Shown: piece by piece, positions 5,444-33,923 of the stretch
How positions within the stretch are numbered: position 1 is the stretch's first letter
Layout: each line of letters starts with the position of its first letter
Virus record (IMG/VR): IMGVR_UViG_3300028837_001110
Coordinates: 1-39,541 of that record
Direction: 5' to 3' (one strand)
Length of the DNA stretch: 39,541 bases
DNA from: a virus
Position numbers and translations under genes: made by a program
Notes under the pieces: generated by a model
Database searches by the model: none
Seen by the model: the letters and a program-made list of their open reading frames with translations, nothing else
Told to the model about the DNA's origin: nothing

Positions 5444-8400
5444 GATGTCACTCCCTCTATACCTTCCGTAATTGTCTTGATATCATTTTTAATTTCTTCA
5501 AAAAGCTCCTCTTTCTCGGCTGCCATTTCTTCAAGCTCATTCATGACAATTTTCTGCGGTATCATCTCTTGAATCGCCGGGCTATGAGTGATAACTATTG
5601 TATGATGCCTCCCGGACTCTATGTGAGCTTTTTCAAGCATATGAAAATAAGCTTCTTTAGCTTCCTGGTCCAGTGCTCCGTCCGCTTCATCTTTAAACAC
5701 GGAAAGAAACTTCATGCCTGTGTTATTCTTTCGGATAATACCGAATGCGTCAGATACTGCCTGCACAGCCCAGCGGGCCTCACCCCCGGAAAGATCGGAG
5801 AGGTCAACCCAATCTTGATGTACGGAGTCAAGAAAAAGAATATTGAAATCTTCGACTTGGTGAGTGTTCTTTCCAGTTCCTGCGTCTCTGGTAGTCTTAA
5901 TCTTAGCTTGTGTATACCGGTTAATCGTTACGTCCTGGGGCAATAGCATATTAATATAATCACAGATTCCCGGAGCTAAGGCGTCGAGCTCAAGGGCTTG
6001 TATTCCGTCCCGCCCGCACGCTTTCTGCAGGTACCGCCACTCTATCATCTGAGTTCGTTTTTCATTTACCTCAGAGGTTAAGAGTTTTTTCTCCCGGATG
6101 TCCGTCTTAAGCTTTTCAATTGCCTTATCAATCGCTTTCAATTCCGCTTCGTGTCCGGCTATCTCAGCCCTGACATCTGAGTAATCTTTCCGGGTCTGTT
6201 CAAGCTTCGTATCAACGATAAGTCCTTCTTCCTCTGCTACTGTGTTGTAGTTGCAGTACAACTTATCAACTGCGTGTTTAATCTCTTTAATATTCACGTC
6301 GATTGTATTACGTTGTTTTAGCTTCTTCGCAATCTCCGTTTCCGCCGTCTCAGATTTGGCGAGAATCGACCGGGCTTCGTGTATCTTGCTTCCGGCCTGC
6401 AATTCTTTGAGTCTTAATTGTAGCCTGCTCAAATTGTTATCTATTTTTTCATACCTCAAATCATACACTGGTTCGGGGGGTTCTTCGAGAACGGAAAGCG
6501 CAAATTTAGTTTCTTCATTTTCAACTTTGAGATTGTGAATCCGATAATATCCGTCTTCAATATTTTTTTCTAATTGTCTTGATTCATAAGATTTTAAAGG
6601 GGTAAATTTCGTTTTACAATTAGGACAAGTCACCATCTGTGTTGATTCTTTTTCCATGAATCGATTATCTTTTTCAATTTTTTCTATAGAAATATTATTA
6701 TCTTTTATAAGGTTCTCACATTTTCTTTTTATGTCTTCATAATCCCTTACTTTTTCATCAAAAACCTGTTTTTTCTTTGCATTTTCTTCAAGAATTTGCG
6801 TTTTTTCCTGCAAAAGGTCTTTCTCTTTTTTCTGCAAATCCTCATATTCTTGAACGGTTTTTGCTGCTTCATCTTTCTTTTCCAGTGCGGTATTAAGGTT
6901 TTGAATTTCTTTGTGAAGCTCATCCTTCCGGGTTTGCTTTTCAGCGAGAAGAGCGGTAGATGTGCTTATCTCTGATTGTATGCGGTTATTCTCTTTGATT
7001 ACCAGGTCAATTTTTTTCTTCTGATCTGCGAGTTCCTGTCCGGCTTTTTCCAAGTCAGCGAGTTGATCTTTTTGAAAATCTATCTTATTTATCACAGTTT
7101 CTTTTTCTTTATTTAATTTTTCAAGAGCTTCATTAGCTCCCTGTAATAGAGTTAGTTTTAATTCGCTTTCTTTGATTTCACCTTCAATCACATCCCCCCG
7201 ATCCTTGCTCATCTCAGAATAGACTTGTAAGTAATCTATCCCGGCTAACTCGGTGAACAGGGCTTTTTTCTCCCCCTTAGTTGCGTCTTCAAGGCTGGGA
7301 TTGGTCTTTGTATTTTTCTGTGTAACGAATACTGAACGGCGGAATAATTCCAGGCTCCCGAAAAGCTGGTTAATTTTCTTTTCATAATCTTCTTTGCGTC
7401 CATTAGTGATTGACTCACCATTTTTGAATAGAAAATATTCTACACTCCCGGATTTATTTTTACCATCAATATTCAGTAAACACCTGTACTCATCTCCGGT
7501 CCGTTCATCAACTCCCCACACTTCCCGGGCAGAATCCCGCAACATGAAATGAGATTGCAACTTTCCGGCCCTGGTAAGCATATAAGGAAACATATGCATA
7601 TTTTCAAGCAAGGTAGTTTTTCCGGTTCCGTTACGACCAATTAAGGCGATAAGTCCCGGGTCCATATTATCAAAGTCAATTATAATTTCTTCTTTCCCTA
7701 TGCCCTTAAATATCCCCGTAGCACCTCGTAGGCGTGTTTTTTTCAGTTTAAAAAACAAACCGTCTGTGATTGCGCCTTGCTTTTTTGCTTCCGCCTCGAT
7801 GGTATCGGCTTTTTCCAGGACGTTCTCAAGGTTTACGGTGCTGTCTGCGCTGTTGGCATGGTATATCTCTACCTTGTCCCGCAGATATTCGGCTTCCTGG
7901 ATGCCAGCGGTCCGGACGGTTTCCTCATGAATCAGGGTAGTTGTGACCTTTGATCCAGGTAGCGCACCTTCGGTTTCAAGGATTTTTTCCCATTTCCCCT
8001 TGTCGAATTCTGCAAGCTGTTCTTTTGTGCCCTTATATTCAAGCCAAATTCGAAATTTACTCACATCCCCTAAACATGAATCAGTAACAATTGTAATAGA
8101 CCCGTCACGCCCTTCAAAACTATCGCCTAAAATTATTTTCTTCATAGGCGGGTGCGGGAAATCATAACGCCGCATGTTAATAGCACCGCACTTAGTGACA
8201 GGTTGCGCAAGGTGGATATGTCCCAGCGCTCCGTAAGTCTGACCGTGGAGTAGCTTCACGTAATTGAAGCCTTTCCGGTCCAGCTCCCCCCAGTTAACTG
8301 GATATACCGATCCCGCATAGTGTGCTTCGATTTTAGGGTCAATCATGAGCAGATCGTCTTTTCTGATATTGATACCCGGCCGCATCACCTGACCAGTACA

Positions 8401-9000
8401 GGCTTTCGATCCGGTTACGGTACCGTGATAGAGGAATAAGCACGGCAGGTCAGAGTATATTTTCCGAATCGCACCCATACCCAGGAAAACATCTCGCATA
8501 CCCTGAGTAATAGCCTGGTCCGATTCGTCCTTACTCATAGATTTACCCTGCAGGAACCAAGTCTTTTGTGGTTCGGGACAACCAAGAATGAGAAGCCTAT
8601 CATCTTCCGACCATGGATCGGCCGAAACAAAAACATCCCCATGAGAAGGATGTGTTAAAAAATATGACTGCCCAGGTTGTATAATCGTGAAATTATGCTT
8701 AGCTTCAATCTGCGTGAATATTTCGTAACACCCTGGTATGTCATGAGTGACAGTACCGTCCACCACAACCATGGGGGCAAGGTTTAGCATCTCCTGTATA
8801 ATCTCGACTAACTCAGGGAATCCAGCGTTCAAGGTATTTTTAACACCGGCATTGAACATGTCACCCGCATAAGCCCACAGGTTGACGCCCTCTTTTTTTC
8901 CGGTATCCAATGCCGTTTTATGAGACAATAGGAATTCTTCTTTTTTTGCTGGGCAATAATGCCCGTCTGCGATATGTATTATTTTGATGCTATCTGTCAT
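5440..9000 (-). CDS. SbcD-SbcC (Mre11-Rad50-like) fusion protein
   Basis: A 1186-residue protein. Residues 1-290 hold the metallophosphoesterase motifs of SbcD/Mre11 in order: ADGH (D12, H14), AGD (D47), THD in place of the usual GNHD (H86, D87), YHG (H192) and GHIH (261-263). Residues about 410-1186 are SbcC/Rad50-like: GRNGTGKT Walker A (455-462), long coiled coils interrupted by a CPNC zinc hook near residue 790, the ABC signature LSGGE near 1070 and a Walker B/D-loop region (FLSVFKDEADGALD). In the usual arrangement these are two proteins that form a nuclease-ATPase complex processing DNA ends; here one chain carries both. The start is the ATG at 9000, preceded by GAGGAGG; an open extension to 9171 is only read-through into the neighbouring gene. 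The gene overlaps the recombination gene before it. Confidence 0.92.
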   Translation of the reverse strand: MTDSIKIIHIADGHYCPAKKEEFLLSHKTALDTGKKEGVNLWAYAGDMFNAGVKNTLNAGFPELVEIIQEMLNLAPMVVVDGTVTHDIPGCYEIFTQIEAKHNFTIIQPGQSYFLTHPSHGDVFVSADPWSEDDRLLILGCPEPQKTWFLQGKSMSKDESDQAITQGMRDVFLGMGAIRKIYSDLPCLFLYHGTVTGSKACTGQVMRPGINIRKDDLLMIDPKIEAHYAGSVYPVNWGELDRKGFNYVKLLHGQTYGALGHIHLAQPVTKCGAINMRRYDFPHPPMKKIILGDSFEGRDGSITIVTDSCLGDVSKFRIWLEYKGTKEQLAEFDKGKWEKILETEGALPGSKVTTTLIHEETVRTAGIQEAEYLRDKVEIYHANSADSTVNLENVLEKADTIEAEAKKQGAITDGLFFKLKKTRLRGATGIFKGIGKEEIIIDFDNMDPGLIALIGRNGTGKTTLLENMHMFPYMLTRAGKLQSHFMLRDSAREVWGVDERTGDEYRCLLNIDGKNKSGSVEYFLFKNGESITNGRKEDYEKKINQLFGSLELFRRSVFVTQKNTKTNPSLEDATKGEKKALFTELAGIDYLQVYSEMSKDRGDVIEGEIKESELKLTLLQGANEALEKLNKEKETVINKIDFQKDQLADLEKAGQELADQKKKIDLVIKENNRIQSEISTSTALLAEKQTRKDELHKEIQNLNTALEKKDEAAKTVQEYEDLQKKEKDLLQEKTQILEENAKKKQVFDEKVRDYEDIKRKCENLIKDNNISIEKIEKDNRFMEKESTQMVTCPNCKTKFTPLKSYESRQLEKNIEDGYYRIHNLKVENEETKFALSVLEEPPEPVYDLRYEKIDNNLSRLQLRLKELQAGSKIHEARSILAKSETAETEIAKKLKQRNTIDVNIKEIKHAVDKLYCNYNTVAEEEGLIVDTKLEQTRKDYSDVRAEIAGHEAELKAIDKAIEKLKTDIREKKLLTSEVNEKRTQMIEWRYLQKACGRDGIQALELDALAPGICDYINMLLPQDVTINRYTQAKIKTTRDAGTGKNTHQVEDFNILFLDSVHQDWVDLSDLSGGEARWAVQAVSDAFGIIRKNNTGMKFLSVFKDEADGALDQEAKEAYFHMLEKAHIESGRHHTIVITHSPAIQEMIPQKIVMNELEEMAAEKEELFEEIKNDIKTITEGIEGVTS

Positions 9001-10084
9001 CCTGCGCCTCCTCTTTGTCCTTATAATAAGCAATATGTTTGTCAAGTTGAATTTCCACCTGCTTGAGATTCTGCAGGTTATTTGCATCTTGATTCTGTTC
9101 AAGATATGCCGTGCATTCACCAAAAAATCCTTCATCAATATATTGTCTGTTGACAGCCATTTTGTGAGCAATTTTATTCTTGAGATTGCTTACGGGATTC
9201 GTGTCCGGTTTTTCCGTGGGGGAGAAACTCGGCGGCATGTCTTCTGGCGGTCCTTCGATTATCTGTGTGGTTTCGGGGGTGACGTTTTTCATTCCCGGCT
9301 CTTCTGTGCTTTCGAAAATATTCTTTACAGCTCCGGTCATATTCTGGATAGCCGTGTTTCTCATTGTTGGATCGCTCAGCATAGCATCAGTATCAAGCAT
9401 GACGTGAGGAACCACAAAAGGTTTTTGCAATTCATCAATCGTATATGTTCCGTGAAGTGCAAAAAAGTACCGAATCACCCGGTTTTTTGCGCCGGTCATG
9501 GCGAGGTCGTCCTTGAATTGCCGTTTTTGCAAAACTGTTTTCTTAACTTGCAGTTCTATCCATGCAAGCCGGTCTTTCTCACTTTTCCAGGGATGAAAAG
9601 ATTTCGGGTATTTTTTCCCGGACTTCGACACTCCCCATTCTTTAACGCTGTTTTGATCACCCTGTAAAGATTTCTCTTCATAGGTGATATACTGTTGTTC
9701 TTCATATACTTTGCAATCAATCGTCTTAGTGTCGGTACAGGTAATCCATTTTCCGTTTGGATGTTTTATCCTCCCGGTTGCCTTGGCAATACTTTTCATG
9801 TCATCCGAAAAAGTAATGTCCATGTGTTCCGGCACCCATTCGATACACGCGGCTAAGGCGAGTTTGTCCAGGCCAACTTTGGTTAAGGCTTTTTCTTTCC
9901 CCTGATCGTAAACTTCTTTTGACCTGGGGGATGTGTCAATCTCCACTATCTCTAATACTACTTTTTCGTACTCACTGATAATTTGACCGTACGTTTTGGT
10001 GGGTATCAGGAGATTGACTTTTGAAACATCGATTTTTTGATTTGTAATCGCGGTTTGAATAACCGCAGGTAAATTGTTATCCAT
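8990..10084 (-). CDS. Phage recombination-region protein, possibly ssDNA-annealing related
   Basis: A 364-residue protein. The segment ALTKVGLDKLALAACIEWVP and later AWIELQVKKTVLQKRQF, DLAMTGAKNRVIRYFFALHG and IDELQKPFVVPHV match a conserved phage family found near recombination genes, whose members I recall as uncharacterised. A Pro-rich linker (about 270-295) joins this core to a helical C-terminus. The location directly before the SbcD-SbcC fusion suggests a partner in recombination, such as an annealing or end-binding protein; that is inference. Start ATG at 10084 follows GGGAGCT. It ends in TAG at 8990, which overlaps the start of the next gene, showing that TAG is an ordinary stop in this phage. 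Confidence 0.6.
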   Translation of the reverse strand: MDNNLPAVIQTAITNQKIDVSKVNLLIPTKTYGQIISEYEKVVLEIVEIDTSPRSKEVYDQGKEKALTKVGLDKLALAACIEWVPEHMDITFSDDMKSIAKATGRIKHPNGKWITCTDTKTIDCKVYEEQQYITYEEKSLQGDQNSVKEWGVSKSGKKYPKSFHPWKSEKDRLAWIELQVKKTVLQKRQFKDDLAMTGAKNRVIRYFFALHGTYTIDELQKPFVVPHVMLDTDAMLSDPTMRNTAIQNMTGAVKNIFESTEEPGMKNVTPETTQIIEGPPEDMPPSFSPTEKPDTNPVSNLKNKIAHKMAVNRQYIDEGFFGECTAYLEQNQDANNLQNLKQVEIQLDKHIAYYKDKEEAQDDR

Positions 10085-13589: not shown

Positions 13590-14138
13590 TTATAATTCTC
13601 CCGTTTTCAAAAGATAAAACGACCACGCAGAAAGATAACTTGCACCGCCCCCGAAAGATTTATTGTCCCCTGGGCTACAGATTAGATTGTCCCATCCAAC
13701 ATTGCACACCTTCAAGAAGCTGTTTTGCGGTGTAGGGTATACGATAGCCACATGGCCGGAACGCCTTCCCTTAATTGTATGCGCGCACAGTAAGACAGGA
13801 TAACCCAACCAGGCGCAAAAACGAGCTTGATCCTGGTCTACCCGGGTTATATATTTTATTGTCATATCGGGCGCTCGCTTGCATATACTATTTGCCGTCA
13901 TCACACAGCCGAGCTTGCCCCATCCTTCCAGCCATTGAAAAAAATTATAATGCATCCATGCCGTGTCTGCTCCGCACTGTTTAGCGATGTATTCAGATGC
14001 CCGATTACAATGCGTTTTGTTTTTCCCATAATAATGTCGCTTAAAATCTTTTCTTTCCAGAGCTTCACGGCATACCTTAATCAGCTTTTCCCGTGCTTTA
14101 TCGTGTCTTTCTTCCCAAATCCATGTTAACTTATCCAA
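13590..14138 (-). CDS. Endolysin: NlpC/P60- or CHAP-like cysteine peptidase/amidase
   Basis: A 182-residue protein. KTHCNRASEYIA (C44), SGHVAIVYP (H129) and VCNVGWDN (N146) are the Cys-His-Asn catalytic set of papain-like peptidoglycan hydrolases, in the order and spacing seen in a phage family with a THCN motif. It would cut peptide or amide bonds of peptidoglycan at lysis. No signal peptide or binding domain is evident, so it depends on a holin. The start is a TTG at 14138 with AAGGAG seven bases upstream; there is no suitable in-frame ATG. A 14-codon frame with its own strong Shine-Dalgarno ends just before this TTG. It is the last gene of the late operon. Confidence 0.8.
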   Translation of the reverse strand: MDKLTWIWEERHDKAREKLIKVCREALERKDFKRHYYGKNKTHCNRASEYIAKQCGADTAWMHYNFFQWLEGWGKLGCVMTANSICKRAPDMTIKYITRVDQDQARFCAWLGYPVLLCAHTIKGRRSGHVAIVYPTPQNSFLKVCNVGWDNLICSPGDNKSFGGGASYLSAWSFYLLKTGEL

Positions 14139-14142
14139 ATTT

Positions 14143-14187
14143 TTACTCCTTAGCAAACCATTTTGCCCGCGTGGCCAAAATGGTCAT
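14143..14187 (-). CDS. Possible 14-aa leader peptide of the endolysin
   Basis: ATG 14187 follows AAGGAGG by six bases and reads MTILATRAKWFAKE, ending in TAA four bases before the TTG start of the endolysin. The stop overlaps the endolysin's Shine-Dalgarno region. The position suggests translational coupling or timing of lysis. It could be fortuitous, though the ribosome-binding site is among the best in the region. Confidence 0.4.
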   Translation of the reverse strand: MTILATRAKWFAKE

Positions 14188-14214: not shown

Positions 14215-14391
14215 CTATATACAAAATAATTTTACACTATTATTTCCTTTATCGAAAATCCATTTTATGTTTATGATTTTATATCTATTTCCATTAATTT
14301 CTATAACATCATTTATTCGCGGAACTGCGTTACTCCGAATACAAAAAATATCAACACCATTTTTATCTAATATGAAATGCAATTCAATCAT
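14215..14391 (-). CDS. Small beta-rich phage protein (58 aa)
   Basis: MIELHFILDKNGVDIFCIRS then VPRINDVIEINGNRYKIINI, a SH3-like pattern common in small phage proteins with the PRINDVI...NGNRYKI core. The ATG at 14391 forms an ATGA overlap with the membrane protein upstream and has GGAGGG ahead. It ends in TAG. Unknown role within the lysis region. Confidence 0.7.
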   Translation of the reverse strand: MIELHFILDKNGVDIFCIRSNAVPRINDVIEINGNRYKIINIKWIFDKGNNSVKLFCI

Positions 14392-14786
14392 TGTTTCCCT
14401 CCAGGATAAAATTCATCCGGTACCTTATCCGGTTTTTCTGGTATAATTTTCGGACCGTTTATCATCGATTTCTTAATAATCCCCAGGGCAATCCATTTTT
14501 GCATTTCATCCATCCTGGAAAGGTTAAGCGCAACCGATTTCCTTTCAGCGCCTCGAACCGCAAAACCTACAGCGTAAAAAAGGATACCACACGCCATATG
14601 CGGGAAAGCGAGAAAGAAAGTATTTATCAAGGTCCCCATGATGTTATAAGAATTGTCTTGATAATATCGGATGTTAATTGAAAAGAAAATTATATACAAT
14701 AGCAATTCGACAAGCAACAGCCCTGCTACGCCCCACTTCCAAAAAAGTATTGTCTGTTCTTTGACTTCCTGGTCTGTTATCACCAA
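14388..14786 (-). CDS. Two-span membrane protein, candidate holin
   Basis: A 132-residue protein with two long hydrophobic segments, WGVAGLLLVELLLYIIFFSI near residue 20 and LINTFFLAFPHMACGILFYAV near residue 55, then a soluble tail (KWIALGIIKKSMINGPKIIP) rich in Pro/Lys. The topology and location two genes before the endolysin make it the best candidate for the holin that releases the endolysin. Class II holins have two spans; this one is longer at the C-terminus than usual. Overlaps the preceding gene by a few bases. Confidence 0.6.
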   Translation of the reverse strand: MVITDQEVKEQTILFWKWGVAGLLLVELLLYIIFFSINIRYYQDNSYNIMGTLINTFFLAFPHMACGILFYAVGFAVRGAERKSVALNLSRMDEMQKWIALGIIKKSMINGPKIIPEKPDKVPDEFYPGGKQ

Positions 14787-15001
14787 TCACCCCCGTCGTT
14801 TTTAATCTTTATTACATCAACTTTATATTCTTGATCCACTCCACCAGATTTGGTCATTGGTATATTGCCGTTTCTATCTTTTCTCATAACACATAATTCA
14901 CCATTTGCGGAAAAAAGCCATAACGATTTAGGCCATACTTTAGCAAGGGTTTTTAATTTTTTTATGACAAGTTTCTCTTTGTTTGTTAATTTAAATTTCA
15001 T
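14780..15001 (-). CDS. Small basic protein in the lysis region (73 aa)
   Basis: MKFKLTNKEKLVIKKLKTLA, a basic helix, then KSLWLFSANGELCVMRKDRN, a strand-turn-strand, and a lysine/aspartate tail. I use ATG 15001, one base after the stop of the upstream coiled-coil gene (TGAAATG) and with GGTGGGGAAT ahead. This coupling is evidence that the upstream frame 15003-15473 is translated. Function unknown. Confidence 0.65.
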   Translation of the reverse strand: MKFKLTNKEKLVIKKLKTLAKVWPKSLWLFSANGELCVMRKDRNGNIPMTKSGGVDQEYKVDVIKIKNDGGDW

Positions 15002-15002
15002 T

Positions 15003-15473
15003 TCATCTATTCCCCACCCCATGGCCTATACATGCAGCCCCTGCGCAGGCGAGAACCCATAAAACACGTTCAATCCACTTTCTGCGCTTTGATTGTTTCA
15101 ATGATTTTTCCCAGTCGCTCAACTGGGTCTCGTATTCCGTCTGTAATTTTTTGTATTTCAATTCCAATACTCTCAATCCTATCAATTCGGTTTGCATCTT
15201 CTGTAAGGTTATTTCTAAGCTGGCTAATTTCTCGCTCTGACTCTTTACGATACTCTGAGAATTCTGATTCGAGCTCTTCAATTCTTCTATTTGCTGCTTC
15301 AAGTTCTGTATTTTGTTCTCCAAATCGGGAATTAAGCTCTTGACCTCCTGGTATATCAGACCCATTTCCGTCAGTTGCTTGCTGGTTGTTATATATAATT
15401 GCTCCTGTGAGTACAGCGATAACAATTCCGAGAAAAACATAACTGCAAACAATAATAAAAATGTTCTTTTCAT
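15003..15473 (-). CDS. Secreted coiled-coil protein with C-terminal membrane anchor (spanin-like)
   Basis: A 156-residue protein: signal peptide-like MKRTFLLLFAVMFFSELLSL, long coiled coil (LIPDLENKIQNLKQQIEELK and on), then a basic stretch and a C-terminal hydrophobic helix WIERVLWVLACAGAACIGHG. A coiled coil bridging two anchors is the layout of unimolecular spanins that join inner and outer membrane at lysis, but there is no lipobox cysteine at the N-terminus. The stop is one base before the start of the next gene. Almost the whole gene overlaps the second frame 15070-15477; the two starts are four bases apart and share GGAGG (nine bases upstream here). Confidence 0.65.
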   Translation of the reverse strand: MKRTFLLLFAVMFFSELLSLYSQEQLYITTSKQLTEMGLIYQEVKSLIPDLENKIQNLKQQIEELKSSNQNSQSIVKSQSEKLASLEITLQKMQTELIGLRVLELKYKKLQTEYETQLSDWEKSLKQSKRRKWIERVLWVLACAGAACIGHGVGNR

Positions 15474-15477
15474 TCAT
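15070..15477 (-). CDS. Membrane-anchored coiled-coil protein overlapping in a second frame (i-spanin-like)
   Basis: A 135-residue protein: MNEKNIFIIVCSYVFLGIVI with one N-terminal transmembrane helix, then a Gly/Asn-rich link and a coiled coil (NTELEAANRRIEELESEFSE and on). This is the topology of an inner-membrane spanin (Rz-like). The ATG at 15477 is five bases after GGAGG. The gene lies entirely within the same DNA as 15003-15473 in the neighbouring frame. Both products have heptad repeats and membrane segments, which chance frames seldom have together. If both are made they may act as a pair, as Rz and embedded Rz1 do. Confidence 0.6.
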   Translation of the reverse strand: MNEKNIFIIVCSYVFLGIVIAVLTGAIIYNNQQATDGNGSDIPGGQELNSRFGEQNTELEAANRRIEELESEFSEYRKESEREISQLRNNLTEDANRIDRIESIGIEIQKITDGIRDPVERLGKIIETIKAQKVD

Positions 15478-15487
15478 TCATTCCTCC

Positions 15488-15532
15488 TTAAGCAGGTTCA
15501 AAATATTCTATCTTTAAATTTTCTGGCATCAT
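15488..15532 (-). CDS. Possible 14-aa leader peptide of the spanin-like pair
   Basis: MMPENLKIEYFEPA begins on the stop of the preceding gene (ATGATG) and its TAA overlaps AAGGAGG of the spanin-like pair. No strong Shine-Dalgarno of its own. It resembles in size and placement the 14-codon frame before the endolysin. May be a coupling device or fortuitous. Confidence 0.3.
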   Translation of the reverse strand: MMPENLKIEYFEPA

Positions 15533-16025: not shown

Positions 16026-16343
16026 TTATAATAATTTAAATATTTTTGCCAAAATTAAACCGATTATTGTTGCTAAAAAATAAAATGATATCCCCCAAAA
16101 AGAATTCCTGATGTCTTTTTTGATGTCATCGAAGCGCTTGAGGTAGTTTGTTTTAATTTCATTAGTGTCTTTTTCCCTATCCTCTTTTTCTTCATCGATA
16201 CGTTTTGCATGATCTGTCAACATACTGTTTATCATTTTTATGTCAGGGATAAACTCTTGTATAATTTCCAGCGTATCAAATATTTTCTTTTTTTCATCTG
16301 TATTAATTATAACGTCCTCTCCGTTCTCTGTTTTCATGCACAT
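16026..16343 (-). CDS. Coiled-coil protein with C-terminal membrane helix (XhlA/holin-associated-like)
   Basis: A 105-residue protein, N-terminal acidic and helical (KKKIFDTLEIIQEFIPDIKM), charged coiled coil (RIDEEKEDREKDTNEIK) and one C-terminal transmembrane helix (FYFLATIIGLILAKIFKLL). This is the size and topology of haemolysin XhlA-type phage proteins that assist lysis. ATG 16343 follows TTAGGAG by seven bases. First gene after the large tail protein; the identification is by topology only. Confidence 0.6.
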   Translation of the reverse strand: MCMKTENGEDVIINTDEKKKIFDTLEIIQEFIPDIKMINSMLTDHAKRIDEEKEDREKDTNEIKTNYLKRFDDIKKDIRNSFWGISFYFLATIIGLILAKIFKLL

Positions 16344-16353
16344 ACAAAAACTC

Positions 16354-19300
16354 CTAACTTACCCTATGTATTGATAAATAATTATAAGTAGCATCATTGT
16401 ATAAGTCCGTATTAGCTCCCCTGTCTATACGTAGTCTGATATCTATATAATCCCCGGCTAAAAGATCTATTTTGTCACTTCCGTGTACTGCTTGATGATG
16501 TGTCAACGCCGCCTCAGCTCTCCAATATGATAACACTGAATATGTAACCCCATTTTTGAACAACAACATTCGAATTCTATCATTAGCAACCCAAGCCACG
16601 TCCGCCGTAAGTATATGAGCATTAACCGCATAATAACCAGATTTCAATGCCGTAAATCTATAATTCGTTACATTATCATATTCTTCAAGGTTATCATATA
16701 CCTCGTCGTCGTATTCAACAATCTCGGTAGTTGCGTCAGTCATAGTCTGTACATCATCTTTTGTTACCCTTACCCTCGATGCGCCGGAGATTCTTAGCTG
16801 ACTGCTTATATGTACTTCTCCACCCGCGGCGGGCCTAAGTGAAATATCTTTATAGGCATAATCAGTATTCCAGGTAACATTATGATTATAATGTTGCGCC
16901 CAAATATTTGGAGTAATGTATTGATCCCATGCAAATACAAGCTCATCAAAACGATTAGTTATTGTCAACCCGCCATTAGCAAAGTTTTGCCTTCCCATTA
17001 AAACACAATAATCAAATGCCCCGGTACCCCAAGTCCCGCCAATTACTCCAGTATTATATATGACATTATTAATATTTAAATATGCTATGTCGTTATCGCT
17101 ATCATACGAAATTCCTATATAATACCAACTGCCAGAGGTGAGAACGATAAAATCATTATCATATTCATATACTGATGATTTTAGTACAGTTAAATTTATT
17201 TTTATATCGTCACTTCCGATTTCCTGGGATATTCTTATTGCAATATAATCACCTGGAGATTGATATAACACGGCAATTGAAATTGTTTCGGCAGTACTGG
17301 ACGTTCCTGAATAATCCAATCTGAGCCAAAATCCAAAAGATTGATCTTCTCCAATAGTACCTCCGGCTGGCGTCCTTATATTTGATATATTTGTGTTTGT
17401 CGCAAAAAGAGAATAAGACCCGAATTTTTTTTCGCTCGAATCGAACGCTCCGTTTGTTTTTTGGCTCCAATCATCAACGCCCAAATGATCTTCATAATTA
17501 TTCTCAAAATTAAAAATCCGATAATTACTGCCAGGGAATAATTCCGCTGAATCCGGCGGATTATCCGGATGATATACCATAACACAGCTAACAGCTGCCA
17601 GAAATAACCCCGCAATTGCGCCGCCTATTTTCAATCTTTCCACCCAAGCACCTCCTGTATATTCATATAATGTATATTCATCTAAATCAATATAATTGAC
17701 TCTATCCCCCTCATCAGGGGAATCATAAGTACCAGTTCCATTATAACCCACATATACATGATCTGAAACCTTAAGAAACAATGTTTGTATCTGTGCAGCT
17801 ATCATGTTATTAGCGTATATCGAGTCAGCGGCCAGGTCTCCGGCTCCTACCGTGTTTGCCGTAGCGTTTGCTGTAGCCGACCATGTGCCGTTTACAGGGG
17901 CTTTTGTAACCCTGCGTACTCTATAATATAATTGCTTTCCGGACGGAGTGTCAGCGTCCCCGGTATGTGGAATACCGCTATGAACCAGAAATTCGGACAA
18001 TACATCCGTTGTGTCATCCAGAGTGTCCTTCCAGTCAGTACCGTCAAATTTCAGAGAATACCAGGACACTCCGTTGTCGTCCGACACCTGTACTTCGTAG
18101 TGATCGAAATTTGTAAGATTAAGCTGCCGGTCCCATATCAGTAATATTGAATGAGTACCCACGGCCTTACACGTTGCAATTGTCACCTGGGTAGGTGTTT
18201 GTGTGCCGCCGCTGGGTGTGTCCGTGAAACCAATCTGATGCTCTACCTTGCTTACCATGCGATTGTTTTCCTGCCTGGTAGAGATAACTGCCCTTGGTGA
18301 AGTTATCTCGTTTTCTATCTCAACGTCATTCAAGGAATAAGCGGTAATACCCTCTGCCGTTATTTTAATATTGTCGAATTCATCCTCTACAATTTCGATT
18401 ACCCGAATATATGTGTCGAACTCCATAATATCAGAATCCAGTTCTAAGATATCGCCAGGGTCATATGAGTCTATAGCCTCGAATCTATATTGAAAATTAG
18501 AATACTTATACCAATCCGCAACGCCATTTGCTAATTTTTTAGCATCATCTGCATCGGTAATATATCTTGTTTCTATTTCCTTGATCTTTTCAGTATCTAC
18601 AACATTATATCTTACGCTTTTTCTTATATCGTTTAGGTCTCTGACTACCGCATCCCCGGTAATATCGAATTTCGTAATTGTTCCGCCGCCAGCAGAATAG
18701 AATTTGATTAACGATCTTTTGTTACCGTGTGTCTCCGTATTAAGCGTAACCCCTGAATTTTCCCAATCTAAATTATGATTACTTACTGTTATAAGTTCAT
18801 AACCGTCTAATTCGAATTTAGAGTAGACATCTTCCGTGTCCGATCCGTCCGGGTACCATTCCCCGGCGCCCAAAGATATGTCACAAAAACTTTCATCGGT
18901 CCCGCCTGTTGTGTCTGAAAAAAGAAGTTTGCCCGTTAAGGTGTCGTGAGGATGCCAGGTAACTCTTGCGGCTTCATATGCAGATTCTTTTCTTTCATAT
19001 TTTAGCCGGGCTCCGGTCTCCCCGTACATGTCTGAATCTTCGATTAGGGTCCCGGATAATGAAGAAGGAAAAATGTCAATCAATTCAAATAATCCCGACG
19101 GTCTGCAATCATAGATATAGCCGAACTGCAGCAATAAATTAATTTGATCTCTATAAGTTGTTTTGTCTTCTCTTTCGATTACAAACCAATCAATCGTTTT
19201 ATCAATCAAGGATAGGTCTAATTCACTGTCTGCGATCCCTGCCTCATAAAACAACTGATGTATAATGCTTGTAGATTTTGATGACGGATTACATACCTTG

Positions 19301-19644
19301 TAATCCTGGTAAGCGAGAGTTTGATTGATACTTTTTTGCAGCAAAACCCCCCGGTCATACCCTTCTACGGTAAGTTTTTTAAAGTCAGATGACACCTCAC
19401 TCTTGTATGTCGGCCGTATCATACCCACGAACCAATTAGCGCCGTCTTTCTCAATCGCGAGTGGCATATCGTCAGTAGCTGTATTGAATTGATTTGCAAC
19501 TGTTTTGTCGTACACCTCGAAATGACAGGTGTTTATTGTTGATCTTAAATCTTTATGTGCGGTTCTATTACGGCTTACCTTTCCGCAATGCTCAGTGATA
19601 TCTTGATCGCCGGTGCCAAAATCTACAAATATAGACCAACTCAT
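16354..19644 (-). CDS. Tail tip / receptor-binding protein with FnIII, LamG-like and C1q-like domains
   Basis: A 1096-residue protein after the tape measure (ATGA overlap). Residues 1 to about 440 resemble a tail-tip hub domain (QITEHCGK..., NWFVGMIRPTYKS, GYDRGVLLQ). About 485-600 is a fibronectin type III-like domain (PTQVTIATCKAVGTHSILLI...YEVQVSDDNGVSW). A hydrophobic segment (IAGLFLAAVSCVMVYH) is near 680. About 705-915 looks like a LamG/concanavalin-type lectin domain (FGFWLRLDYSG..., YYIGISYDSDNDIAYLNI). About 985-1096 has the C1q/TNF-like jelly-roll pattern (YRFTALKSGYYAVNAHI...LLFKNG...YLSIHRVS). Such multidomain proteins recognise host surface sugars or proteins. Domain calls are by eye. 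Confidence 0.8.
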   Translation of the reverse strand: MSWSIFVDFGTGDQDITEHCGKVSRNRTAHKDLRSTINTCHFEVYDKTVANQFNTATDDMPLAIEKDGANWFVGMIRPTYKSEVSSDFKKLTVEGYDRGVLLQKSINQTLAYQDYKVCNPSSKSTSIIHQLFYEAGIADSELDLSLIDKTIDWFVIEREDKTTYRDQINLLLQFGYIYDCRPSGLFELIDIFPSSLSGTLIEDSDMYGETGARLKYERKESAYEAARVTWHPHDTLTGKLLFSDTTGGTDESFCDISLGAGEWYPDGSDTEDVYSKFELDGYELITVSNHNLDWENSGVTLNTETHGNKRSLIKFYSAGGGTITKFDITGDAVVRDLNDIRKSVRYNVVDTEKIKEIETRYITDADDAKKLANGVADWYKYSNFQYRFEAIDSYDPGDILELDSDIMEFDTYIRVIEIVEDEFDNIKITAEGITAYSLNDVEIENEITSPRAVISTRQENNRMVSKVEHQIGFTDTPSGGTQTPTQVTIATCKAVGTHSILLIWDRQLNLTNFDHYEVQVSDDNGVSWYSLKFDGTDWKDTLDDTTDVLSEFLVHSGIPHTGDADTPSGKQLYYRVRRVTKAPVNGTWSATANATANTVGAGDLAADSIYANNMIAAQIQTLFLKVSDHVYVGYNGTGTYDSPDEGDRVNYIDLDEYTLYEYTGGAWVERLKIGGAIAGLFLAAVSCVMVYHPDNPPDSAELFPGSNYRIFNFENNYEDHLGVDDWSQKTNGAFDSSEKKFGSYSLFATNTNISNIRTPAGGTIGEDQSFGFWLRLDYSGTSSTAETISIAVLYQSPGDYIAIRISQEIGSDDIKINLTVLKSSVYEYDNDFIVLTSGSWYYIGISYDSDNDIAYLNINNVIYNTGVIGGTWGTGAFDYCVLMGRQNFANGGLTITNRFDELVFAWDQYITPNIWAQHYNHNVTWNTDYAYKDISLRPAAGGEVHISSQLRISGASRVRVTKDDVQTMTDATTEIVEYDDEVYDNLEEYDNVTNYRFTALKSGYYAVNAHILTADVAWVANDRIRMLLFKNGVTYSVLSYWRAEAALTHHQAVHGSDKIDLLAGDYIDIRLRIDRGANTDLYNDATYNYLSIHRVS

Positions 19645-30080: not shown

Positions 30081-32107
30081 GGCATCTCCCTTATAACCGG
30101 GATAAACGAAAGCGTATTGTTAGGGTGATCATCCAAGGCGTAAGCTTCCGTTAACGTGATTACGTCCCCGCTTCTTTCAATACAGAATTCATCAGAAGTC
30201 GGAAGCTGACCGTCAACTATCTCGACCTTGTCAATTCCGCCCTGTTTGTAGGCGTCGAGAGAAGCTACGTTCTGCGCTTGTTTTGTCTCGGTCCGGGCAA
30301 TTACTTTCGATCTAATCTTTGAAGTCGTCCACGGACCCGCGGCAACCAAATCTTTAATCGTCTGCGCTGCCTGATACGGACCTTTCCCGGCTTCCCGGGC
30401 ATCCGCAAGGGCTTTAAGGACCGCCTTTTTTGTGTCGTCTTCCAGGTTCAGCAGGCTTTTCCTGCGCTTTGCGTCTTCAATTAGTTTGATCTCGTTTTGA
30501 TCCGTGAAATTAACGCCAAGTCCTGTAATTGCGTTAATGTTATCGAAAATATCTTTTCCTACTCGCAGGTAGTGCGGGCCATAGTCGATTATGTCAGTAT
30601 TGATCTCTTCTGATATAAGGTCCGCATAATATTCATCCAGTTCAGCGCCTTTTTTCTCTACGTCCTCATGAGACAATGTCTCAATCCCTCTTTCAGCTAC
30701 CAAATTAAGCCACAATTTTTTTGCTTCTCCACCAAGTATGTTGAAAAGGGCCTCATATTTCCGTTCATAGATTCCGGTAAACCTTTTCTCAGATTCCGCA
30801 AAAGTTCTTATAAGTGCCCTGCCTATCTGCGTCATTTTTGTTTGCGATTTCCGGCTCTTATCATCACCGGTCATTGTTTGATCTGAAATATTCCCGACTG
30901 GCATAATATTGAAAGGCATAAAGTACACATCGTGTTCAGGCCCGACCTCATAGCCTAATGCTTGCCGTGCCTCGCCCTGAGTGATTACCATATCTTTCAT
31001 TTCTCCCCGGATACGTTCGGATTTTTTGTTTTCATCTTCCTGTAACACTCGAACGCCTGATAAATCAAAATCTATTTTCCAGCGATCCGGCTGTGGTTCA
31101 AAGTCCGGGGTAAGCTGCACGTCAAGTTCCTCAGCAATAAGATTTTGCATCGGGATAATACAATCCTCATATGCAGCCTCCCGCATTGATTCCATAGTCG
31201 CTCCGACCTTGGTTTGCTCAAGACCAGTACCGAATCCTACCACAGCAGCAGGAACGCCTAATATCGCAGTGACTCGCTCCTCGGGAACTTGCCTTAACCG
31301 GGAAAGATCCATGTTCGCAGGTGAGAAACCTAATTGCTCGACTTTGGTTTTTGATTCCATGACAAGGGGTTCTCCCCTTCGATCCCTGCCGAACTTTTCT
31401 TTAAAGGCTTTCTTAAGTAGTTTAGCATCATCTTTTCCAATTACAACATTTTCTTGATCTGGGCTTAGTATTATTCCAGGGATCCCCATGTTACGCAAAA
31501 GACTCGCTGAAAAATTTGCCGCTTCATCATCGGTGAATATTTCCCGGAAAAGACTCTTAAGAGGTGACAATCCTTTTCTGATGTTTTCCGGATCAATTCC
31601 AAACCGGATATGTATTACATCTTCCGGATCGACCCTGATATTTTCACCTCGGGGCCGGTAATTGTAATAATCGATATATTGATTACCGCTGTCCGGTGTA
31701 TGCGGATTCATCATCCAGTGAGGAACATACCACAGTTCCACCGGTTTAAGCTGATTATTTCGTATTTTCAAAAGATACACATTACCATCGATATTATAAG
31801 AGAGTCCGGTCGACATTCTCATCAGTCGGCCGGAATAATAAGGATTAGGTCTTTTCAACAGGGTTAGTATATCATGACTATCCTGTATTTCATCGTCTTT
31901 CTTAATTATAGGCTTAGCTTCCGCGAGTCTGCGGCATATCCACAACACCGGGGCCATGATCACCGAGGATTGCATACCCTCGCCGACTTCTTTCTCATAA
32001 TCGAATCTTGTCCGGGGCATTAGATAGTTAAGAAGCCGGTCCCGGGGGAAGACCATTGCGGATAGAGCTTTTATAAGCAGACGCGTAAAAAATCCAGGTC
32101 GCTTCAT
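30077..32107 (-). CDS. Portal protein fused to a MuF-like C-terminal domain
   Basis: A 676-residue protein. About 1-400 is the HK97-type portal (LWICRRLAEAKPIIKKDDEI, DGNVYLLKIRNNQLKPVELW, VIHIRFGIDPENIRKGLSPL, RVTAILGVPAAVVGFGTGLE). From about 430 to the end are helices and a MuF/minor-head-like part (RSKVIARTETKQAQNVASLD, VDGQLPTSDEFC, LDDHPNNTLSFIPV). In many phages MuF is a separate gene; the fusion would place it inside or at the base of the head. I use ATG 32107: it makes an ATGA overlap with the terminase stop and has TTGGAGG eight bases upstream; the 11-residue longer frame lacks these. Confidence 0.88.
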   Translation of the reverse strand: MKRPGFFTRLLIKALSAMVFPRDRLLNYLMPRTRFDYEKEVGEGMQSSVIMAPVLWICRRLAEAKPIIKKDDEIQDSHDILTLLKRPNPYYSGRLMRMSTGLSYNIDGNVYLLKIRNNQLKPVELWYVPHWMMNPHTPDSGNQYIDYYNYRPRGENIRVDPEDVIHIRFGIDPENIRKGLSPLKSLFREIFTDDEAANFSASLLRNMGIPGIILSPDQENVVIGKDDAKLLKKAFKEKFGRDRRGEPLVMESKTKVEQLGFSPANMDLSRLRQVPEERVTAILGVPAAVVGFGTGLEQTKVGATMESMREAAYEDCIIPMQNLIAEELDVQLTPDFEPQPDRWKIDFDLSGVRVLQEDENKKSERIRGEMKDMVITQGEARQALGYEVGPEHDVYFMPFNIMPVGNISDQTMTGDDKSRKSQTKMTQIGRALIRTFAESEKRFTGIYERKYEALFNILGGEAKKLWLNLVAERGIETLSHEDVEKKGAELDEYYADLISEEINTDIIDYGPHYLRVGKDIFDNINAITGLGVNFTDQNEIKLIEDAKRRKSLLNLEDDTKKAVLKALADAREAGKGPYQAAQTIKDLVAAGPWTTSKIRSKVIARTETKQAQNVASLDAYKQGGIDKVEIVDGQLPTSDEFCIERSGDVITLTEAYALDDHPNNTLSFIPVIREMP

Positions 32108-33426
32108 ACGGGCCTCCAAGTGATTCTTAACGGTTGGCATATGGCGAGACAGAAAGCGTCCGCTTTGTCCGGGCTTTTAAGCCCCCGTTTTTTCATATCT
32201 ATTTTTCGCTCTATTTGTATGCGCCCATCCGGTCTTACTGTATACTTCCTGGTTGTGAGTTGACTTATAAATTCCGGATCATCAGGAATTGACATAGTTT
32301 TCAGCGCTTCCTTAGCTTCTCCCCACATTTGCGAATTGTAGAGATAATAATCTTTATCCGTTGCCGTGTCACCAAAGTTGACCGGAATTACTTCTATGTT
32401 GAATTCTTCTTGTCTCGGTTCAAGTTGATCCACTACCCCTGCACCGATACCGGTCGCATCTACCCGGACTTCAATTTTTTTCTCATATCCTGTTTTTCTT
32501 ATCTCTTTCACTATCCTTATCACCTCTCCAGCACACCTGGTAGTATTAATTCCGTGAAATGAGGAAAACTGAATACTCAACCCTTCCTTGACACATATCT
32601 CCGTTGAATCATCCCCGTATCGGGCCGGGTCCACGCCGATTGTAATTTTTCCGCCTTCTTCAACAATCCTTTTAACCGCCGGTTCGGTGTCTGCCAGACT
32701 TATAAGTGCATCGGGTGTGCCCTGCGGAAACTGTCCAGCAACACGCACACGGTATACATCAGATTCCCGGCCGTATTTCTCCGCAATTCTATTGCAGTAC
32801 TCAGCGGTAACGAGGTTTGATTTTTCAGAGGAGAAGGTGAAAGTCTTATATTGTGCCCTGTCCTTATGAAAGGCATCGTAAAATGAACCGCTTATTCGTG
32901 TTGGATTTCCGCACATAAGAAGTTTTCCTTCCTGGGTAAGTGCGCCGAATACGACTTCAAGAATCTCCTCGGGGATCCCCGGTGCTTCATCGATAAGGAA
33001 AAGCAAGTTTTCGCTATGAAACCCCTGCAGGTTTTCGGGCTTTGAGCATGCCCTGGGTACTGAAAACCAGGTCTCTGCATGTCCCCTCATATACATCCTG
33101 GTTTTAGTCCATTCGAAAGCGTTTTTTAATCGTGACCGGTTAAGCCATTTCTTGACTTCCGGCCATAATATATCTTCTAATTGGTGTTGAGTCGGTGCCG
33201 TACAAGGAACTTTTGAATGGGGACGGGTAGACAGAAACCAGAGTTGCGCCCAGGCCTCGACTGCCGTTTTCCCTATTCCGTGCCCTGATTTGACACATAT
33301 TTGAGAAGATCCGGCGAGTGCTGTTAACACCTTTGCTTGTTCAGGCTCCGGCTCTACTCCTATAATATCCTTTACGAAATGTACGGGATTATTAGCGTAA
33401 TGCTGAATAGCCTCAATCAGACCCAT
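32104..33426 (-). CDS. Terminase large subunit
   Basis: A 440-residue DNA-packaging motor: Walker A SGHGIGKT at 47-54, Walker B LLFLIDEA at 141-148, an ATPase-coupling motif (LLMCGNPTRISGSF), and RNase H-like nuclease residues D266 (VDPARYGDD), D323 (RVDATGIGAG) and DAF near 412. It cuts concatemeric DNA and drives it into the prohead through the portal. The start is ATG 33426, overlapping the small subunit by 14 bases; a start at 33474 is possible, while the frame to 33903 merely shadows the small subunit. Confidence 0.95.
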   Translation of the reverse strand: MGLIEAIQHYANNPVHFVKDIIGVEPEPEQAKVLTALAGSSQICVKSGHGIGKTAVEAWAQLWFLSTRPHSKVPCTAPTQHQLEDILWPEVKKWLNRSRLKNAFEWTKTRMYMRGHAETWFSVPRACSKPENLQGFHSENLLFLIDEAPGIPEEILEVVFGALTQEGKLLMCGNPTRISGSFYDAFHKDRAQYKTFTFSSEKSNLVTAEYCNRIAEKYGRESDVYRVRVAGQFPQGTPDALISLADTEPAVKRIVEEGGKITIGVDPARYGDDSTEICVKEGLSIQFSSFHGINTTRCAGEVIRIVKEIRKTGYEKKIEVRVDATGIGAGVVDQLEPRQEEFNIEVIPVNFGDTATDKDYYLYNSQMWGEAKEALKTMSIPDDPEFISQLTTRKYTVRPDGRIQIERKIDMKKRGLKSPDKADAFCLAICQPLRITWRPV

Positions 33427-33880
33427 TTCCGCTTCTATTTTCCCAGGCTTCCGCGACTGCGTCGGCAAAGACATTTCCGGAATGCTCAATGTTAAGGACC
33501 TTCTTATACAAACCTCTAAGTTCAGCTCTACGAGTAATGTATTCAAGAAGTTGTTTTGACAGGGTTGTAAGCTGGTAAACAGACTGGGACTGGATTTCTT
33601 TGCCGATATCTTTTCGTAGTCCTTTTTTGATATTTGAAGATATTTTTTTGAAAATCGCTTGCATGGGCCCGTATACCTGGTTAAGAGCTCGTAATTCTTC
33701 CAGGATAGACTCTTTTGTTTGTTCTGTGAAAAATCCGTTTTTCCTACCGTAACGCAAAGCAGCGTCAATAGTAGAACGAGCGACGTTAAAATGTGTAGCC
33801 ATTTTCTCAGCGGTAGCCGAGATGTTGGCGACTTTGTAAGAGCAAATCTTAATATACTTGAAATCCTGCGCCGTAAGCAT
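33413..33880 (-). CDS. Terminase small subunit
   Basis: A 155-residue helical protein with an N-terminal helix-turn-helix (AEKMATHFNVARSTIDAALR) and coiled-coil oligomerisation region (PMQAIFKKISSNIKKGLR). It recognises packaging-site DNA and loads the large subunit, encoded next. ATG 33880 has no Shine-Dalgarno; the promoter -10 ends only 11 bases upstream, so the mRNA would have a leader of a few bases or none. Confidence 0.8.
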   Translation of the reverse strand: MLTAQDFKYIKICSYKVANISATAEKMATHFNVARSTIDAALRYGRKNGFFTEQTKESILEELRALNQVYGPMQAIFKKISSNIKKGLRKDIGKEIQSQSVYQLTTLSKQLLEYITRRAELRGLYKKVLNIEHSGNVFADAVAEAWENRSGNGSD

Positions 33881-33891
33881 ATCACAATTGT

Positions 33892-33923
33892 AATATAGCG
33901 CACAGATTAGGACAAAGTCCTAA
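33892..33923 (-). promoter_or_regulatory. Late promoter with perfect 17-bp palindrome at its -35
   Basis: TATATT (33897-33892) preceded by CTGTGCGC; no good -35, instead the perfect palindrome TTAGGAC-TTT-GTCCTAA (33923-33907) covers the -35 zone. Downstream is TACAATTGTG, also at the promoter 15991. A weak -35 with a palindrome suggests activation by a phage or host protein. Confidence 0.6.

Follow-up and report, generated by a model that had tools for sequence, protein, structure and literature searches.

An overlapping pair of coiled-coil membrane genes behind one Shine-Dalgarno sequence in a phage lysis module: a possible spanin-like pair with no lipobox

Kongari et al. (2018; PMC6139136) distinguish embedded, overlapped, separated and unimolecular arrangements of spanin genes, and found no spanin in 91 of the 677 genomes of their survey. 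They also pointed to type I proteins carrying a C-terminal transmembrane (TM) segment as possible spanin components, and left these out of their search. Unimolecular spanins (u-spanins) have been reported to be beta-rich (PMC7830690). Out-of-frame dual initiation at AUGUG has been shown by Kohl et al. (PMC9841429), with pqiA and tamA as the E. coli examples, and the same authors cite Thermus rnpA-rpmH as a described precedent for the use of a single Shine-Dalgarno (SD) sequence: GGAGG followed by AUGGAUG, in which the two AUGs stand 4 nt apart.

Here we describe a locus that bears on both subjects. It lies in the IMG/VR virus record IMGVR_UViG_3300028837_001110, the 39,541 nucleotides of which are referred to as the window; this 39.5-kb record represents a tailed virus, whose minus strand carries the genes for an HK97-type capsid, a portal and a tape-measure protein. 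On the minus strand, gene A runs from 15477 to 15070 (135 aa) and gene B, which is in the +1 frame relative to A, from 15473 to 15003 (156 aa); their ATGs are separated by 4 nt, and they overlap by 404 nt. One SD sequence, GGAGG (15483..15487, minus strand), is shared by both, at 5 nt from the ATG of A (15477) and 9 nt from that of B (15473). The start region as read from the sequence, ATGAATGAATGA (15470..15481, minus strand), contains three ATGs, one per frame; the additional one, at 15481, opens three codons (M-N-E-stop), and its TGA overlaps the ATG of B. The stop of B, a TGA at 15005-15003, is placed one base ahead of the next likely start, an ATG at 15001. The initial annotation, which had proposed two fully overlapping genes behind one SD, was correct in all these coordinates: GGAGG, both starts, both frames and the position of the B stop relative to the next start. 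A short minus-strand frame at 15488-15532 (MMPENLKIEYFEPA) ends in a TAA that touches the shared GGAGG, and translation may therefore be coupled from this frame into the pair.

The membrane and coiled-coil layouts that had been claimed for the two products are borne out by sequence features and by AlphaFold2 single-sequence models. Judged from its open frame, profile match, codon usage and model, A (15070..15477) is i-spanin-like: a strong N-terminal TM segment, predicted to act as a signal anchor, is followed by a single long helix, predicted to be periplasmic. The model of A (pLDDT 87) has helices at residues 3-36 and 45-133, and A matches the Rz-like spanin family PHROG 739 (phrog_739, E=1.4e-5), with the reservation that PHROG matches of coiled coils may be biased. 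B (15003..15473), for which the open frame, permutations, AlphaFold2 and syntenic phages provide the evidence, has a signal-like N-terminus, MKRTFLLLFAVMFFSELLSLYSQ, then a helical coil and a weaker C-terminal TM segment, ERVLWVLACAGAACIGHGVGNR. The latter is encoded by the tail of B past the stop of A (15003..15069, minus strand), a single-coding stretch of 67 nt here and of 79 nt in the two syntenic phages described below. B has no Cys ahead of residue 143, none near the N-terminus, and no lipobox. Its single-sequence model (pLDDT 85.7) is a helical hairpin, 2-71/76-151, in which both hydrophobic ends point to one side and would thus seem to share a membrane. Immediately ahead of the C-terminal TM segment stands KRRK, and these basic residues fit poorly with a periplasmic coil. 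A fold search of B against viral models returned only weak matches, to long coils.

The same interval was read in two further phages, IMG/VR 3300031554_000003 (G001) and 3300009788_000064 (G002), which were reached via portal, tail and endolysin homology, i.e. by synteny, and not via the design of the pair. G001 has the C-terminus of a tail protein and an endolysin candidate in common with the window, G002 the portal (52%) and tail genes. Both phages possess an A-type frame with an N-terminal TM segment and a hydrophilic remainder, overlapped over 411 nt in G001 and 459 nt in G002 by a B-type frame with a signal-like N-terminus, a hydrophilic middle and a C-terminal TM segment. B is the +1 frame of A in all three phages, and in G001 and G002, too, one GGAGG-type SD serves both starts; these are 4 nt apart in the window, 5 nt in G001 (ATGAAATG) and 2 nt in G002 (ATGTG, where an ATG 21 nt upstream of the GTG is a possible alternative start of A). 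A-type profile matches, subject to the same reservation about coiled coils, are found for G001 (phrog_214, E=0.0045) and G002 (phrog_7584, E=0.062, not its best match). Relatives with only one frame open had been named beforehand as evidence against a double gene; both syntenic relatives keep both frames open. The A and B proteins of the three phages are barely alignable; synteny and frame make it likely that the pair is of common descent, which sequence alignment does not demonstrate. The structural genes of G001 are apparently quite unlike those of the window, yet it shares the C-terminus of the tail protein at 16354-19644; such a tail C-terminus and an endolysin candidate, common to otherwise different phages, suggest a common host and module exchange.

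Like Rz/Rz1 of lambda and LysB/LysC of P2, A and B form a pair in a lysis module, in which A, with its N-terminal TM segment and coiled coil, has the features of a type II i-spanin and its partner overlaps it extensively in the +1 frame, as is true of many two-component spanin pairs, though not of all. Unlike Rz1 and LysC, B has a C-terminal TM segment and lacks the lipobox of the o-spanin, an outer-membrane lipoprotein, and the pair therefore falls short of a defining feature of two-component spanins. A further difference is that the starts of A and B are 2-5 nt apart behind one SD, with near-complete overlap from the first codon. The likeness to Rz/Rz1 seen in the initial annotation thus holds for two overlapping lysis-type genes with shared initiation, for a design that recurs in two phages and for an A that matches Rz-like profiles, but not for B, which with no lipobox and a C-terminal TM segment is not of Rz1 type. 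The unimolecular spanin gp11 of T1 likewise combines an N-terminal export signal with a C-terminal TM segment; B differs in having no lipidation signal, in its helical coil and in its overlapping i-spanin-like partner. The starts themselves, two codons in different frames a few nt apart behind one SD (ATGAATG here, ATGTG in G002), conform to the single-SD ambiguous start of Thermus rnpA-rpmH and of AUGUG in E. coli, except that those are bacterial genes, whereas the present ones are phage membrane proteins of one module, known from sequence. The lambda holin gene S is also a lysis gene with two nearby starts, S105/S107, but these share one frame and yield almost identical proteins. What is new here is that the shared start goes together with a partner that has no lipobox; this may be a new form of spanin pair.

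In the window the pair is part of a series of small minus-strand genes, which extends from the last large tail gene (16354-19644) to an endolysin candidate. Between tail gene and pair lies a 105-aa coiled-coil protein with a C-terminal TM segment (16026..16343), XhlA/holin-like by layout and without a convincing family match; a small C-terminal-TM protein follows the tail gene in G001 and G002 as well. On the other side of the pair, a 73-aa protein (14780..15001), which starts one base past the stop of B, and a 132-aa protein with two hydrophobic segments (14388..14786), a holin candidate by layout, both gave no family match. A 188-aa protein with conserved Cys/His motifs (13590..14156), 40% identical to the equally placed protein of G001, likewise matched no family and is a putative endolysin. 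In G002 a small TM gene and an endolysin gene (phrog_17001, E=2.5e-13) directly precede the pair, so that the placement with holin and endolysin genes is clear there, the endolysin of the window being a candidate. A lenient six-frame lipobox search, which covered the window and the complete G001 and G002 records apart from frames interrupted at two joins of retrieved segments, gave no usable gene: the sole matches were starts internal to tail genes and, in G001, one polytopic membrane protein distant from the lysis module. The A/B pair is consequently the only spanin candidate found. Elsewhere, positions 5440-9171 of the window encode a 1243-aa SMC/SbcC-like protein (phrog_77, E=6.8e-28), large for a 39.5-kb phage.

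Most likely, A is an i-spanin-like protein that disrupts the outer membrane together with B. Ribosomes would bind at the single GGAGG and start at either of the two ATGs, so that both proteins are made. The N-terminal helix of A would be held in the inner membrane and its helix of ~90 residues extend into the periplasm, as in an i-spanin, while B would be exported via its signal-like N-terminus and held by its C-terminal TM segment, with the coiled coil between. Once the endolysin has cut the peptidoglycan, A and B may associate through their coils, which would then disrupt the outer membrane and replace the i-spanin/o-spanin pair. This presupposes a host with two membranes, the outer of which is assumed; a scan of genomes for the capsid matched only Saccharopolyspora, where a capsid relative occurs, and two MAGs, and a search of 46 genomes around one MAG was empty. 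That the pair functions in a spanin-like manner is moderately probable, and for the full proposal of two lysis proteins that are made from one start region and act together on the outer membrane we estimate a probability of a little under 0.6. Alternatively, both genes could be real and have another task in the envelope, as a holin/antiholin-like or lysis-timing pair or in superinfection exclusion. We consider this unlikely, but it would accommodate the modelled B hairpin with both ends probably in one membrane, the lack of an outer-membrane anchor in B and the small coil-plus-TM proteins adjoining the pair. It would leave unexplained that the best matches of A are Rz-like spanin profiles that a second spanin candidate was not found in the window, G001 or G002, and that the portal relatives L008, L012 and L018 have, according to our scan, embedded Rz/Rz1-like pairs with lipoboxes.

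Either of these readings requires two genes, and A and B are very probably both real. When synonymous codons were permuted with the A protein held fixed, the B frame was open in 5-9 of 20,000 trials (two runs: 9 and 5), and with the B protein fixed the A frame was open in 24-25; when codons were instead sampled according to the codon usage of the phage itself, the count was 0 of 20,000, whichever frame was fixed. The corresponding permutations left B open in 18 and A in 1 of 20,000 trials for G001, and in 53 and 0, respectively, for G002. The third frame of the overlap contains 18 stops. In 36 other genes, taken as a control, the longest open run in the +1 frame was 100 codons, versus ~133 at A/B; the +2 frame has one run of 162 codons and otherwise reaches 81. 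The source of that one run is probably a 155-aa frame at 33413-33880, a likely small terminase gene, within an over-extended 599-aa ORF (32104-33903).

Translation of A alone, with the B frame left open as a side effect of a gene that encodes a coiled coil and a TM segment, is improbable. Composition would agree with it: over the overlap A resembles true genes in codon usage, while B is intermediate between these and shifted frames; A is favoured over B by codon usage as well as by positional composition, and the B of G002 scores like a shifted frame. By composition A is the better supported frame, the case for B being built on its openness, its junction with the next gene and the comparison between phages. 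Moreover, a TM segment in one frame often yields hydrophobic residues in +1; given the TM codons of A, 41-58% of open draws have a hydrophobic N-terminus in the B frame, and that of B is therefore not independent evidence. A by-product, however, should not stay open in three barely alignable phages in which just 5, 18 and 53 of 20,000 shuffles leave it so, nor would its stop be expected to abut the next gene's start. The stop of A, furthermore, directly precedes the codons for the C-terminal TM segment of B in 3/3 phages; the background rate of a hydrophobic, stop-ended stretch is 5, 9 and 10% per genome, or ~4.5e-4 jointly. The converse, B translated alone with A as by-product, is very improbable: the tight junction of B with the next gene and a B-like gene in MW202444 that another frame overlaps in part only would suit it, but the better codon usage and the Rz-like profile match belong to A, the frame of which is open in 25, 1 and 0 of 20,000 shuffles. 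That B is an ordinary o-spanin or u-spanin with an atypical lipidation signal, as a possible LMSC lipobox in the MW202444 B-like protein, an LVSC in an ambiguous fourth locus and Cys19 within LLLC of the G001 B protein might hint, can scarcely be reconciled with the lack of any Cys before residue 143 in B of the window and with a lenient six-frame search that gave no lipobox gene in its place.

A lipoprotein-free spanin class, consisting of two membrane-anchored coiled-coil proteins with near-complete overlap and one ribosome-binding site, a design kept across barely alignable phages, is a tentative extension of the spanin-like reading. If true, such a class would correspond to the alternative topology mentioned, but left unsearched, in the 2018 spanin survey. 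Spanin searches rest on lipobox detection, and a lipobox-free lysis-module pair offers a concrete candidate. The pair also adds a phage example to the very few described cases of one ribosome-binding site with two out-of-frame genes. Gene callers that disfavour overlaps would probably miss the arrangement.

Further cases proved scarce. Close homologues of A or B were absent from IMG/VR, phage records and 36 related virus records, as were those of the G001 and G002 B proteins from phage records, and scans with the endolysin and the major tail protein turned up no other lysis module of this type. The design is absent from six reference phages among those in which Kongari et al. found no spanin (Petty, BPP-1, B124-14, LUZ24, Syn5 and RcapMu) and thus is not a general answer for spanin-less phages. 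A possible fourth case, in G010 (IMG/VR 3300037440_000274; L126, starts 4349/4353), has an LVSC lipobox and two starts at a distance of 4 nt. It was not counted: the locus is GC-rich, its openness is not significant with A fixed (4018/20,000), and its B frame runs into an apparent tandem copy of A. At positions 4349-5334 there, a start region of this type occurs twice in tandem (GGAGGGCTAGATGAATG and GGAGGGCTAACATGGATG): in each, ATGs spaced by 4 nt open one frame for a TM protein and another, out of frame with it, that bears a signal; the second of these signal-bearing frames resembles a lytic transglycosylase. MW202444.1 (L063, 961-1666) has a partly overlapped relative of the pair: an unannotated A-like coil frame (961-1284) partly overlaps a B-like gene (1223-1666) in the +1 frame, the product of which has a signal, a coil, a C-terminal TM segment and the possible LMSC lipobox, and which adjoins an M15 peptidase.
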